Positions 2,946-52,702 of a DNA stretch of 55,162 nt are shown in pieces. Origin of the DNA: an uncultured Sutterella sp. (GTDB lineage Bacteria > Pseudomonadota > Gammaproteobacteria > Burkholderiales > Burkholderiaceae_F); assembly GCA_949282745.1 (NCBI GenBank), contig CASDQM010000030.1, forward strand, positions 1 to 55,162, written 5' to 3'. A program made the translations under genes and the position numbers. The notes under the pieces are model-generated. The model searched no databases, was not told where the DNA came from, and saw only the letters and a program-made list of their open reading frames with translations. Each line of letters begins with the position of its first letter. Position 1 is the stretch's first letter.

Positions 2946-3497
2946 ATGTTCGCCTCTTTGCTGCAGTTTCTCTTTCTTACCGCCACTTCCATTCTCGGGT
3001 GTCTCCTCGTCCTTCGGGCGTGGACCTACGCCTGCGCCATGACGTTTCACGATCCGATCGTCTATCCGATCCGGCGCCTGACGAACTGGCTCGTGGATCC
3101 CTTGAGCAAGATGGTGGCGCCCAAGGGGGCGTGGGACTGGCCGAGTCTCGTCGGCGCCCTCCTCGCGGGGCTTCTGAGCGTCGTCGTGCGCACGGCCTTT
3201 CATCCGGCGGGCTTTGCGATGGTAAGCACCTGGATCGCTCCCTTCGCGATGGTGCTCCGCTGGGGCCTCGAGATGCTCACCTGGGGCATTTTCGGCTGGG
3301 TGATCCTCTCCTGGGTCGCCGCGCGCCATCCCTTCAACTATTCCCTGTCGATTCTGCTCGAGCCCTTCATGCGGCCGGTGCGGCGCGTTCTTCCGACCTT
3401 CCGCGGCATGGACTTTTCGCCGCTCGTGGTGCTTCTCGCCGCCAACGCCGTGCTGCTCTTTATCCTGCCGCTCTCCGACGGTCGGATCCTCTTCTGA
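2946..3497 (+). CDS. YggT family membrane protein
   Basis: 183-residue membrane protein with two YggT repeats. Each has a pair of hydrophobic helices flanking a loop with the family signature (here YPIRRLTNWLVDPL near residues 39-52 and LEPFMRPVRRVLP near 138-150). YggT proteins are linked to osmotic shock or cell-division phenotypes in other bacteria, but no biochemical activity is established. The start ATG directly precedes a hydrophobic segment. The gene is 85 bases after ampD and may be read from its own promoter. It ends just before a strong bidirectional terminator. Confidence 0.88.
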   Translation: MFASLLQFLFLTATSILGCLLVLRAWTYACAMTFHDPIVYPIRRLTNWLVDPLSKMVAPKGAWDWPSLVGALLAGLLSVVVRTAFHPAGFAMVSTWIAPFAMVLRWGLEMLTWGIFGWVILSWVAARHPFNYSLSILLEPFMRPVRRVLPTFRGMDFSPLVVLLAANAVLLFILPLSDGRILF

Positions 3498-26451: not shown

Positions 26452-26813
26452 TGGTGGAGGCGGCGGGAGTTGAACCCGCGTCCGGAAACCTTTTTCTGTT
26501 GGTTCTACATGCTTAGCCGAATGATTTGAATCTTATCCGTAACCCTGCCGATCGGCGGGCCGATTGCGGACCAGTCACCTTGATTTCGGACCCGCATCGG
26601 CGACGCCTGCGGGACCTAGACTCTGTCAGATGATGCTGCCGTCAGTTGCCTGACCCGGCCCAGAGACCAGCCGGTGCAGCACCTCGCCAATTAGGCGGCG
26701 AGGGCGAAACGCTTGTTGTTGGCGTTTATTGGTTTGCAGCGGATTTACGAGGTGACTGCACCTCGACATGCCCCATACAGCGTCCGCGTCCCCGTCGAAA
26801 CCAAGGCGCCCCC
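26452..26813 (-). ncRNA. ssrA: Transfer-messenger RNA (tmRNA)
   Basis: Rescues stalled ribosomes by acting as tRNA-Ala and then mRNA. About 362 nt. The two ends form the tRNA-like domain. The 5' GGGGGCG pairs with the 3' CGCCTCC (one G-U pair), followed by ACCA encoded in the DNA. The T-arm GCGGG-TTCAACT-CCCGC precedes the acceptor strand. TTGGTTTCGACGGGGA near the 5' end is the conserved D-like region. The tag reading frame at 26723-26691 starts at GCC and gives ANNKRFALAA, then TAA. The ending ALAA is the protease-recognised degron. CCA is encoded. The 5' leader region between 26814 and gph is short. Confidence 0.96.
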
Positions 26814-37339: not shown

Positions 37340-38950
37340 TCAGGCGCCTTCTCGTTCGTAGACGAAGCGGCCGCCCACCATCGTGGCGTCGACCTTCGCC
37401 GTGCGAAGCGTCACTTCCGGATTCGTGAAGATGTCTTCCGAGAGGACGACGAGGTCGGCGTAGTAGCCCGGGAAGAGGCGTCCCTTGACGTTTTCTTCAA
37501 AGCTCGCGTAGGCGCTCTCGAGCGTGTAGCAGTCGACGGCGTCGTAGATGTCGATCTTTTCGCCGGGGAGCCACCCGCCTTCGGGTTCACCGCGCAGGTT
37601 CTTGCGCGTGACGGCGCAGTAGAGGTTGTCAAGCGGCGCCATGTCTTCGATCGGAGAGTCGGTGCCGAAGCTCGTGTGGATGCCCTTCTTCACCATCGTG
37701 CCGAAGGCGTAGCTCGTCGCCGTCAGTTCGGGACCGACGCGGTCTTCGCAGATCTGCATGTCGTAGTGCAGGAAGATCGGCTGCACGAGGGCGAGGATGT
37801 CGCTGCGGCGGAAGCGTTCGATCTGTTCGGCGTCCGTGATCTGGCAGTGAACGATCCCGAGGCGAAGCGGATTCGTGCCGTCGGGGCAGTAGTTTTCATA
37901 GCAGTTGAGGACGTTCTCCACGGCGCCGTCGCCGATGGCGTGGATCGCGACGCTGCAGCCGTACTCGACGGCCGTCGACACGAAGGCCTCGATCTGTTCG
38001 GGCGTGAGGGTGGCGATCCCCTTCGTCGTCGGATCGTCCGCATAGGGACGGCGAAGCAGAGCCGTGCGCGCGCCGAGACTGCCGTCGACGAAGAGCTTGA
38101 GCGGCCCGAAGCGATGGAAGGGTGTGCCGCGGTTCGTCGTGTAGCCGCGCTCGAGGAAGGCGCGGTAGTCCTCGGGATTCGGGAAGTTCACCTGATGGTA
38201 GACGCGCACCGTCGGATTCATCTGGGTGCGGTTGTAGGCTTCAAGCACCGTTTCCCAGGTGTTGCCGCGCAGGTCGTTCGTCTGCACCGAGGTCACGCCC
38301 GTTTCGGCGGCGTGCGCCATGGCGATGCGAAGGAGCTTTTCCGTGTCATCCACGTCGTGCTTGCCGAGAATGGCGCGGACCTGGGGACGGGCGTTTTCGC
38401 GGATGATGCCGTTGGGTTCGCCGTCGGGATCGCGGTCGATGGCGCCGCCCTCGGGGGCGACCGTGTCGCGCGTGACGCCCGCAAGGCGCAGGGCCGGGGT
38501 GTTGGCCGTCAGCACGTGCCCGCAGGCGCGCTCGAAGACGAGCGGATAGTCCGTCGTGATGTCGTCGAGATCGTGGCGTGTGAGCATGCGGTGCTCGTCG
38601 GTGAAGTAGTCGTGGTTCCACCCCATGCCGTGGAGCACGGTCCCGGGCGTCGGATGATTCTTCTCGATGTACTCGAGCGTGATGCGCTTGACGTCGGCGA
38701 TGCTGCGCGCCGTATGAAGGCGTACGTCGGCAAGGGCGATCCCGGTGTTGAAGAGGTGCTGGTGCGAGTCGTTGAAGCCGGGCACCACGGTGCGGCCCCG
38801 GGCATCCCAACGTTCGGCGTCGGCGGGCGCGGCGGCCGAGACTTCCTCGAGCGTGCCGACGGCCTTGACGAGTCCGTCGTCGATCAGGATCGCTTCGGCG
38901 AAGCGGCCGCGTTCCAGGTAGATGTGCGCGTTGTAGATCAAAGTGGCCAT
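37340..38950 (-). CDS. YtcJ-type amidohydrolase (amidohydrolase family 3)
   Basis: 536 residues, cytoplasmic, no signal peptide. Metal-dependent hydrolase. The first metal motif is GFNDSHQHLFNTG near residues 58-70. Later ligands lie in VAIHAIGDGAVENVL, GIVHCQITDAEQ and HTSFGTDSPIEDMAPL. The barrel-flanking beta-sandwich comes from the first 55 and last 70 residues (YYADLVVLSEDIFTNPE). YtcJ homologues hydrolyse diverse amides, formamides or carbamates, and this substrate is unknown. It starts 13 bases after the transporter gene stop, so it is in the lysine-riboswitch operon. That makes an N-substituted lysine or lysine-containing compound a reasonable guess, no more. Confidence 0.88.
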   Translation of the reverse strand: MATLIYNAHIYLERGRFAEAILIDDGLVKAVGTLEEVSAAAPADAERWDARGRTVVPGFNDSHQHLFNTGIALADVRLHTARSIADVKRITLEYIEKNHPTPGTVLHGMGWNHDYFTDEHRMLTRHDLDDITTDYPLVFERACGHVLTANTPALRLAGVTRDTVAPEGGAIDRDPDGEPNGIIRENARPQVRAILGKHDVDDTEKLLRIAMAHAAETGVTSVQTNDLRGNTWETVLEAYNRTQMNPTVRVYHQVNFPNPEDYRAFLERGYTTNRGTPFHRFGPLKLFVDGSLGARTALLRRPYADDPTTKGIATLTPEQIEAFVSTAVEYGCSVAIHAIGDGAVENVLNCYENYCPDGTNPLRLGIVHCQITDAEQIERFRRSDILALVQPIFLHYDMQICEDRVGPELTATSYAFGTMVKKGIHTSFGTDSPIEDMAPLDNLYCAVTRKNLRGEPEGGWLPGEKIDIYDAVDCYTLESAYASFEENVKGRLFPGYYADLVVLSEDIFTNPEVTLRTAKVDATMVGGRFVYEREGA

Positions 38951-38963
38951 GACGATTCTCCGA

Positions 38964-40355
38964 TTACGATTGGTTGCTGAGGGCGTCGTGCTGCTTCTTG
39001 AAGAAGAGCTCGTAGAGGCCGAGACCGAAGAGCGGCACCAGGAGACCCAGAGCGGCGGTGACGGGGTCCTTCGTGACCGTGTTGACGATGAGGCCGATCA
39101 TGATGCAGCAGATGACGATCACGAGGAAGGGATAGAGCCACACGCGGTACGGACGTTCAAGCGTCGGATACTTGCGGCGCAGCACGATCACCGAGAAGAA
39201 GGTCATGCCGTGGAAGATCATGCCGACGACGGCGACGAGGCTCGTGAGTTCGGAGAGCGTGCGCGAGCTCACCAGGATGATGGCCATGACGGCCGAGGCG
39301 ATCTGGGCGTTGATCGGGGTCTTCGAGATCGGGTGGAGCTTGGCGAAGCTCTTGAAGAGCGCGCCGTCGCGGGCCATGGCGTAGTACATGCGCGGGAAGA
39401 CCATGATGCAGCCGTTGAGCGAATTGAAGATCGCGAGGATCATGGCGGTGCCGACGATGATCATGCCGGCCGAACCGAAGAGTTCGTTGGCGGCGTGCGT
39501 GCCGAGGTAGTAGTCCCCGCCGTTGACGAGATTGACGATCGTGTCGTAGGGCAGAACGCGGTAGACGGCGTAGTTGAAGAGGACGTAGAGGAGCGCGACG
39601 CCCGTGATCGAGCCGATCAGCGCGAGCGGGATGTTGCGCTTCGGATTCTTGATTTCTTCGGCGATGTTGTTGAGGTTCGTCCACCCTTCATAGGCCCAGA
39701 GGGTGGCGATCACCGCAAAGCCCACCATGCTGCAGAGTTCGGGAATGCTCGGCATTTCGCCCGGGAAGTACGTGAGGTCGGGCGACTCGTTCCCCATCAC
39801 GAGACCGCAGACGAGGATGAGGAGGATCGGGAGCATCTTGAGGATCATGAAGATGTTCTGCACGAGACTGCCGAAGCGGATCCCGCAGAGGTTCACGCCC
39901 GTGAGGAGCAGGATGGCCGTGATGGCGATCGCCTTCTGCGTGAGTTCGCCGAGCGGGACGAAGCTCGAAATGGCCGCGGCGAAGGCGACGGCGAGCGCCG
40001 CGATCGAGCCCGAGGAGGAAAGGCAGAAGTTCGCGAAGCCGCACATGAAGGCGACGCGTTCGCCGTAGGCTTCGCGCAGGTAGACGTAGTAGCCGCCCGC
40101 CTTCGGCATCATGGCGCCGAGTTCGGCAAAGCAGATCCCCGACATGAGGGTGACGAGGCCGCCGATGAGCCAGACGAGCAGGGCGAGGCCGAGGCTCATG
40201 CCGCTTCGCTGCAGGACGATGGCGCCGATGTAGAAGATGCCCGAGCCGATCATGATGCCGGCCAGAACGGAGATGCCGCCGAAGAGCCCGACGTCGCGTC
40301 GAAGCTCGGTCTTTTCAGACGTAAGCGCGGCAAGGTTGTTGCTGTTGGTTGTCAC
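38964..40355 (-). CDS. APC-family amino-acid transporter under a lysine riboswitch
   Basis: 463 residues, 12 membrane helices. APC fold: helix 1 has the substrate-binding unwound segment GIMIGSGIF near residues 34-42. Helix 2-3 has CFAELGAMMPKAGGYYVYLREAYG. Helix 6 contains ATLWAYEGWTNLNNIAEEIKNP. The closest impression is the LAT/SteT group of amino-acid exchangers, not LysP. Lysine riboswitch control (40421-40630) suggests the substrate is lysine, a precursor or a lysine derivative. The leader from terminator to ATG is 65 bases, with GGAGACTTTCC just before the start. Confidence 0.92.
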   Translation of the reverse strand: MTTNSNNLAALTSEKTELRRDVGLFGGISVLAGIMIGSGIFYIGAIVLQRSGMSLGLALLVWLIGGLVTLMSGICFAELGAMMPKAGGYYVYLREAYGERVAFMCGFANFCLSSSGSIAALAVAFAAAISSFVPLGELTQKAIAITAILLLTGVNLCGIRFGSLVQNIFMILKMLPILLILVCGLVMGNESPDLTYFPGEMPSIPELCSMVGFAVIATLWAYEGWTNLNNIAEEIKNPKRNIPLALIGSITGVALLYVLFNYAVYRVLPYDTIVNLVNGGDYYLGTHAANELFGSAGMIIVGTAMILAIFNSLNGCIMVFPRMYYAMARDGALFKSFAKLHPISKTPINAQIASAVMAIILVSSRTLSELTSLVAVVGMIFHGMTFFSVIVLRRKYPTLERPYRVWLYPFLVIVICCIMIGLIVNTVTKDPVTAALGLLVPLFGLGLYELFFKKQHDALSNQS

Positions 40356-40420
40356 GGAAAGTCTCCAAGGGGTTGCGCACGCCGTCTTCGGGCGTGAACG
40401 CGAGGGTTTCTAAAAGAGAC

Positions 40421-40447
40421 AAAAAAGCCGCATCTATCGACGCGGCT
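40421..40447 (-). terminator. Riboswitch-controlled terminator
   Basis: Minus-strand stem AGCCGC/GCGGCT (40426-40447) with a ten-base loop, followed by TTTTT. The loop contains CGATAG (40434-40439), complementary to the 3' strand of aptamer helix P1 (CTATCG, 40469-40474), which can form the alternative antiterminator. Confidence 0.88.
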
Positions 40448-40469
40448 CCATGACAGTGAAACAGCGGCC

Positions 40470-40630
40470 GATAGCTCCTCCGCACGGCAGTGCGTGCGGG
40501 AGTCCTGCGGATCTTCTCCGCAGAACCAGCTTCAAAGACCCGTCGGTCTTTGCGCTTCGGCGGTTTGACCTTTCACCGTCGTCGTCGGGCACCCCCTCGG
40601 ACGGCTACTCTTTCGCACCGCGCCTCTATC
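40470..40630 (-). promoter_or_regulatory. Lysine riboswitch aptamer (L box)
   Basis: Read on the minus strand, it shows the L-box signatures in order. GATAGAGGCGCG comes first, with the P1 5' strand GATAG. Then AGAGTA (loop-E/turn region), GGTGAAAGG, CCGCCGAAGC, a helix AAAGACC/GGTCTTT, then GCTGG, a helix CTGCGG/CCGCAG, GGACTCC, a helix CCGCACG/CGTGCGG, and GAGGAGCTATC, whose CTATC closes P1. The order and spacing match the B. subtilis lysC leader almost feature by feature. It is known to bind L-lysine. Here it is followed by a terminator, so lysine should switch off the APC transporter and amidohydrolase. Confidence 0.95.
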
Positions 40631-40854
40631 CGAACTTGTTTGTCGTGAGGGTACTTTCGCAAATTCCCCGCGTGCTGTCCACCCGAGAGGCCGATATTGT
40701 TCGGAGAAAACGGACTTTTTCATCGGAGTGCAAAGCGTTTGGGAGGTTTGCCTTAGGGAATCGGCAAGGGTTTCGGGGGAAATGCCCCCCATGCGGAGCG
40801 CTTCGCGCCCGATGCGAAGGGGCCTGCGCGCGGCGAAGAAGACGCCCTTTCTTG

Positions 40855-52462: not shown

Positions 52463-52558
52463 GGCGGGTCCCCTCGCATGCCGCCTCCGGCAATCTGGTC
52501 AGGTCAGGAATGAAGCAGCCACACCGGAGTAGCGACAGTGCCGAGGAAAAGGCTCGCC
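52463..52558 (+). ncRNA. ffs: Signal recognition particle 4.5S RNA
   Basis: About 96 nt. The conserved helix-8 tip GGTCAGGTCAGGAATGAAGCAGCC (the Ffh-binding symmetric and asymmetric loops, GGAA-type tetraloop) lies at about 52497-52520. The ends GGCGGG (52463-52468) and CTCGCC (52553-52558) pair to close the rod. Flanking helices can be traced as TCTGG-side and CCGGAG-side strands. The tetraloop is GGAA (GNRA). It works with Ffh encoded at the other end of the window. Position near dnaX is common in bacteria. Confidence 0.95.
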
Positions 52559-52702
52559 ATTTTCATTTTCTGCGCTCCCTCCGTTCGGATCTCTCGGATC
52601 CGTCCCGTCTCTTGAGCACCCTCCCGCGCTCCTTCCCTTCCTTCTCTCCCATCCCTCGGATCCGTTAGACTTGAGCATTCGGACCAATCCCGACGCTCGA
52701 CC

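Follow-up and report, generated by a model that had tools for sequence, protein, structure and literature searches.

Lysine riboswitch at the head of a permease-amidohydrolase operon

The window analysed here is the whole 55,162-nucleotide stretch of contig CASDQM010000030.1 (positions 1 to 55,162) from an uncultured Sutterella sp. Its minus strand carries a lysine riboswitch (Rfam family RF00168) in the leader of an operon that encodes an APC permease and a metal-dependent amidohydrolase. We hold with good confidence that this switch acts by an OFF mechanism and that the unit is shared with gut Clostridia, from which it was most likely received. The elements of the locus are as follows.

40464 to 40636, minus strand: lysine riboswitch aptamer RF00168 (96.6 bits by cmscan over the whole window, gathering score 30, E 2e-24).
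40626 to 40630, minus strand: 5' strand of helix P1, GATAG, read from the sequence; it pairs with CTATC at 40474-40470, a pairing enforced and checked in folding.
40467 to 40474, minus strand: CTATCGGC, the 3' strand of P1 (CTATC, 40474-40470) doubling as the 5' arm of a putative antiterminator.
40421 to 40449, minus strand: intrinsic terminator (terminator scan), with a hairpin at 40449-40424, a T run at 40426-40421 and compensatory changes among relatives.
40434 to 40441, minus strand: GTCGATAG, the conserved 3' arm of the putative antiterminator, made of the terminator loop and adjoining stem.
40363 to 40366, minus strand: GGAG, by its sequence a likely ribosome binding site, 7 bases ahead of a GTG start.
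38964 to 40355, minus strand: LAT-like APC permease of 463 amino acids with a GTG start (PF13520, 205.1 bits against 27).
37340 to 38950, minus strand: YtcJ-like metal-dependent amidohydrolase (Amidohydro_3) of 536 amino acids (PF07969, 329 bits against 29.7).

The cmscan alignment covers the model from position 1 to 182 of 182 and is not truncated. The leader also folded better than its shuffled versions (z -4.38; none of 200 was as good), and the Rfam score settles that the aptamer lies beyond chance. We regard it as a genuine lysine riboswitch that presumably binds lysine. The covariance search thus bears out the initial annotation, which had proposed a complete lysine riboswitch on this strand closed by P1 (GATAG/CTATC); the span given there, 40421-40630, includes the terminator and starts 6 bases into the Rfam match.

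The amidohydrolase gene begins 13 bases behind the permease gene, and with such a pair the targets are non-biosynthetic, as had been anticipated. The structure model of the permease matches the structures of y+LAT1 and LAT1; its score against TIGR00911, the NCBIfam model of the LAT subfamily, is 232.6 bits, below the cut-off of 701.8, and we therefore call it LAT-like only. The amidohydrolase model matches 3igh and 3icj. Its residues His63, His65, Lys285, His337, His368 and Asp431 are invariant in 44 sequences and align with the same residues of 3icj; we take them to be the metal-binding positions of the superfamily. Among the 50 structure matches listed there was no YtcJ-like structure of known function, which proves nothing.

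Terminator, antiterminator and switching

The terminator hairpin starts twenty bases past the P1 3' strand and has 11 pairs (6 of them G-C), a loop of 4 and six T at its end. The P1 3' strand and the terminator loop are complementary, as the initial annotation had noticed: CTATCGGC (40474-40467) and GTCGATAG (40441-40434) can form 8 pairs, one of them G-U. Taken in the window sequence alone such a match is only mildly unlikely: with the terminator letters shuffled, 32 of 500 trials reach it, and the weight of the pairing comes from its conservation among cassette switches rather than from the single sequence.

By cassette we mean the permease-amidohydrolase unit, and 48 cassette switches (22 betaproteobacterial, 26 others) were compared. 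U-run terminators were sought by ungapped search, and the threshold for pairing with the P1 strand was set at 7 or more. A U-run terminator was found in 40 of the 48 (14 of 22 betaproteobacterial, 26 of 26 others), and at least 7 pairs with the P1 strand in 30 of these 40 (14 of 14 betaproteobacterial, 16 of 26 others); the pairing of L132, counted among the 30, lies outside CTATC and is doubtful. Twenty of the 48, picked for pairing of at least 7 and a related hairpin, make up alignment A1, and since they were selected on pairing the percentages of paired cells lean in favour. In A1, 96.3% of the antiterminator cells are paired, against 14-59% in slid controls, and 2 of its pairs have changes in both partners; for the terminator stem the figures are 97.2%, 27-50% and 5 pairs. 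The covariation score was reached by 1 of 500 shuffles for the antiterminator and by 0 of 500 for the terminator.

When P1 and the terminator were enforced together the fold reached -95.5 kcal/mol, against -95.2 kcal/mol for the enforced antiterminator, and an RNA that ends before the terminator 3' arm is predicted to form the antiterminator. Without lysine, the P1 3' strand would pair with the terminator loop and 5' arm and transcription would continue; with lysine bound, P1 would close, the terminator would form and transcription would stop. The expression platform has the anatomy of a transcription-terminating lysine OFF switch. This upholds the structural half of the OFF switch that had been proposed; lysine binding and the OFF direction are probable.

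Four observations weigh against this account. The best unconstrained fold (-100.9 kcal/mol) has the terminator without P1 and lies 5.7 kcal/mol below the antiterminator fold, so that the mechanism depends on folding during transcription; the folding program ignores ligand and tertiary contacts. Ten of the 26 non-betaproteobacterial cassette switches have fewer than 7 pairs with the P1 strand: five of a Lachnospiraceae group, three of Chloroflexota (in which the hairpin was possibly mis-picked), L090 and L093. The ungapped search found no terminator in 8 of the 22 betaproteobacterial switches, the host's second copy included; five of these eight have, by eye, an imperfect hairpin before T, and the other three (G000:C25, G060:C22 and G053:C88) a hairpin that lacks the T run. 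Finally, a search upstream of the switch found no sigma-70 promoter.

Distribution in the host family and order

RF00168 was found in 28 of 67 genomes of the host family, in 7 of its 18 genera, and in 12 of 12 genomes of the genus counting the host; among the sampled genomes of the order it occurs in 11 of 399, five of the 11 in the host family. Betaproteobacteria are moreover already named in print for lysine riboswitches, on lysW and biosynthesis genes (PMC5584792). That the lineage is unusual for this riboswitch, as initially put, is therefore not supported. That the host is of Sutterellaceae type agrees with the closest named permease record, an uncultured Sutterella (97% identical).

The host contains the complete unit twice, the second time at L038 (G000:C25:57000-63253), where it again comes with a switch (at 3213-3416, minus strand, 83.4 bits). 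The family holds 24 amidohydrolase copies above 500 bits, and 21 have a switch upstream on the same strand within 4 kb. The three copies that lack one belong to G013 (permease present), G008 (no permease in the fetched piece) and G056 (permease fragmented). At locus L138 of the last genome (G056:C73:25500-31700), an intact-looking amidohydrolase follows a permease that matches only in fragments, and there is no switch; at L140 (G013:C14) and L089 (Duodenibacillus) both genes occur together and no lysine riboswitch exceeds the cut-off. Locus L055 (G058:C1:1811100-1819000) has two lysine riboswitches on the same strand, about 2.1 kb from each other, one for the amidohydrolase and one for the permease.

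A further scan covered 11 distinct proteins encoded downstream of other switches in the searched genomes. Four were NhaC-like and four DapA; the rest were an amino acid permease of model PRK10836, which we take to be LysP, a DAHP synthase 617 bases away and a frame without a match. In other families of the order, the lysine riboswitches of L033, L034, L035 and L036 lie directly before dapA-type genes (Pfam and NCBIfam assignments for L033 and L034 only). Lysine auxotrophy behind the uptake operon was considered and rejected, lysA (TIGR01048) being matched in 65 of the 67 family genomes, 62 of them over the cut-off and the host included.

Eight neighbour genes scanned against NCBIfam shared no common theme: three gave no match, and five matched a hypothetical family, SelO, a DppA-like aminopeptidase (below the cut-off), HflX and a TrpB-like enzyme. 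The gene on the other side of the window switch is lapB-like and runs in the opposite direction (best NCBIfam score 363.8, cut-off 430). Elsewhere in the window lie a transfer-messenger RNA (26452-26813, minus strand) and a small bacterial signal recognition particle RNA (52463-52561, plus strand).

Sharing of the unit with Clostridia and other phyla

We collected 80 permease loci and scanned 51 with Rfam in three sets (18, 17 and 16); 15 betaproteobacterial loci were covered by the genome search, and 14 Firmicutes loci lay outside the Rfam scan. A home-made aptamer pattern, too permissive and with 34 of the 48 known switches recovered, served to choose loci only, and all statements on switches rest on Rfam. 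Permeases 64-70% identical to that of the window occur in Pygmaiobacter, Aristotella, Ruthenibacterium, Bittarella, Neobittarella, Anaerofilum and Lachnospiraceae, and relatives at 60% or below in further Firmicutes, four Chloroflexota species-level records and one Synergistota. RF00168 precedes the permease in all 18 loci of the first set (17 Clostridia, 1 betaproteobacterial), the Clostridia permeases of which are 64-70% identical in 14 cases (the others being L086 at 60, L114 at 54 and L132 at 70 but partial). It precedes 8 of 17 in the second set (five Chloroflexota, three Clostridia; in one of the misses, L074, the sequence upstream is only 140 bases long) and 1 of 16 in the third. The permease-amidohydrolase pair is kept in most of the 80 loci.

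The 27-base terminator stretch GTTGCATCGATGGATGCAACTTTTTTT is identical to the letter in L073 and L071 of Clostridia and in G002, G001, G006, G009 and G058 of the host family. Full-length permease relatives outside the family reach at most 32% identity in 200 genomes of the order, with a single stretch of 165 residues at 41%. Because close Clostridia permeases come with the switch, the terminator is shared and relatives elsewhere in the order are so distant, the riboswitch and its genes appear to have moved between phyla as one unit that includes the terminator. Expression platform and all, the unit would have crossed between the Clostridia and Betaproteobacteria of the gut, with same-switch relatives in Chloroflexota. 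Misassembly is an unlikely source of the pattern: the unit is not confined to binned genomes but stands in named-strain records on both sides (Sutterella wadsworthensis, S. massiliensis, S. seckii and Parasutterella secunda; Bittarella massiliensis and Neobittarella massiliensis).

Proposed function of the unit and probable direction of its transfer

We tentatively propose a salvage unit that crossed phyla, in which the LAT-like permease would import N-epsilon-acyl-lysine or another N-acylated lysine, the amidohydrolase would free lysine, and lysine would shut the operon. The released lysine would act through the operon's own riboswitch, so that the unit would regulate itself. It is also a real possibility that the permease takes up lysine in its free form, as other transporters under riboswitch control do, and that the amidohydrolase acts on something else, with the switch mechanism unchanged. 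Against free-lysine import, the gene pair is kept in most of the 80 loci, also where neighbours differ (8 neighbours checked), and in G058 a separate lysine switch stands 78 bases ahead of the amidohydrolase gene. The switches of G058, standing in a row before amidohydrolase and permease, speak against the enzyme being a passenger. Standard in itself, the switch is of use as a marker, since a lysine sensor ahead of such an enzyme offers a testable guess at the substrate of that amidohydrolase group.

The direction of transfer was approached with trees. The permease tree used 65 of 85 rows (the 20 left out were L086 with an early stop, short rows and near duplicates), and its 22 betaproteobacterial rows form one side of a branch (99). 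A tree rooted by a careful method with 5 Firmicutes outgroup rows (32-36%) took 12 of the 22, and these form a clade (100/98) inside Oscillospiraceae and Lachnospiraceae (98/97); this join into Clostridia was also flagged as a long-branch join. The amidohydrolase tree (64 rows; near duplicates and the short L068 left out) showed the same neighbourhood as the permease, with one Sutterella row, L125, apart from the rest.

In the aptamer tree, 69 of 74 aptamers were used (the five left out were two from G057, one from G409 and two switches to which no gene was assigned). One group (95/97) holds 21 betaproteobacterial cassette aptamers, 12 Clostridia cassette aptamers and 3 betaproteobacterial aptamers of lysP type; the betaproteobacterial nhaC and dapA aptamers lie away from it, and the other Clostridia and Chloroflexota cassette aptamers elsewhere in a tree in which many branches are weak, the alignment being short. 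G061:C18 is in no tree. The aptamers of L025, L056 and L046 (G062, G058 and G054), which stand before LysP-like permeases of the genus, fall among those of the cassette, and the cassette switch may have been reused there for another gene.

Transfer from Clostridia to the ancestor of Sutterellaceae is the likelier direction and is not settled, as the two outgroup rootings disagree. That the switch was instead vertical within Betaproteobacteria, or passed from Sutterellaceae to Clostridia, appears rather unlikely. With 8 remote Burkholderiales permeases as outgroup, a quick method placed the root among the betaproteobacterial rows, which counts against receipt from Clostridia, and NhaC- and DapA-linked lysine switches do occur in the order; however, this outgroup branch is very long (3.93), the nearer Firmicutes outgroup nests the 12 betaproteobacterial rows within Clostridia under the careful method, and the cassette aptamers join those of Clostridia rather than the betaproteobacterial nhaC and dapA aptamers.

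Two lesser alternatives concern the enzyme and the switch. That the amidohydrolase is a peptidase acting on X-Lys dipeptides to release lysine, in the manner of the L-Lys/L-Arg carboxypeptidase Cc2672, is improbable. It is most improbable that the window switch is a decayed relic without function: cassette copies of the genus do vary, those of G000:C25, G060:C22 and G053:C88 having kept aptamer and hairpin with no T run, and the RF00168 matches of G057 reach only 39-40 bits, but the window retains an intact aptamer, P1, antiterminator and T run as well as two intact reading frames, and among relatives the changes in the stem are compensatory.

Comparison with known systems

Transporters are ordinary targets of lysine riboswitches (PMC5584792). 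In the open-licence literature of PubMed Central (PMC), as far as its text was accessible, we found no description of a lysine riboswitch on a LAT-like permease with a YtcJ-like amidohydrolase, and no paper that joins 'lysine riboswitch' with 'Sutterella' or 'riboswitch' with 'ytcJ'. The nearest arrangement is in C. difficile, where a lysine riboswitch precedes yfcC and an M20D amidohydrolase (PMC11477304); the order of switch, transporter and amidohydrolase is the same, and the proteins there carry other family names (YfcC, M20D).

The permease resembles LAT-type permeases (BasC, y+LAT1, LAT1) in sequence and fold, below the TIGR00911 cut-off as given above. The Streptomyces epsilon-lysine acylases SmELA and SgELA (PMC10699109, PMC11511702) are YtcJ-like amidohydrolases by the description of PMC10699109, a likeness that would fit a link to lysine; they are said to lack the carboxylated lysine (PMC11511702). 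Lys285 of the unit's enzyme, which may or may not correspond to that residue, is invariant in the 44 sequences.

A 2007 survey (PMC2258182) cited earlier work that saw no recent horizontal transfer in lysine aptamer trees; later papers reported transfers of lysine riboswitches with genes, to Actinobacteria (PMC5584792) and to Thermotogales (PMC3766115). Here likewise a switch and the genes it regulates appear to have passed between phyla, with other genes and lineages and with a terminator shared over 27 bases; as an exchange of a riboswitch along with terminator and two genes it would be a clear example. The switch is alike to the lysine riboswitch (L box, RF00168) of terminating OFF type in its whole aptamer, in the P1 strand shared with an antiterminator and in its intrinsic terminator; its target alone, the pair of LAT-like permease and YtcJ-like amidohydrolase, sets it apart from the known L box. 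The less ordinary part is the identity of the operon and its sharing with Clostridia, not the switch itself.
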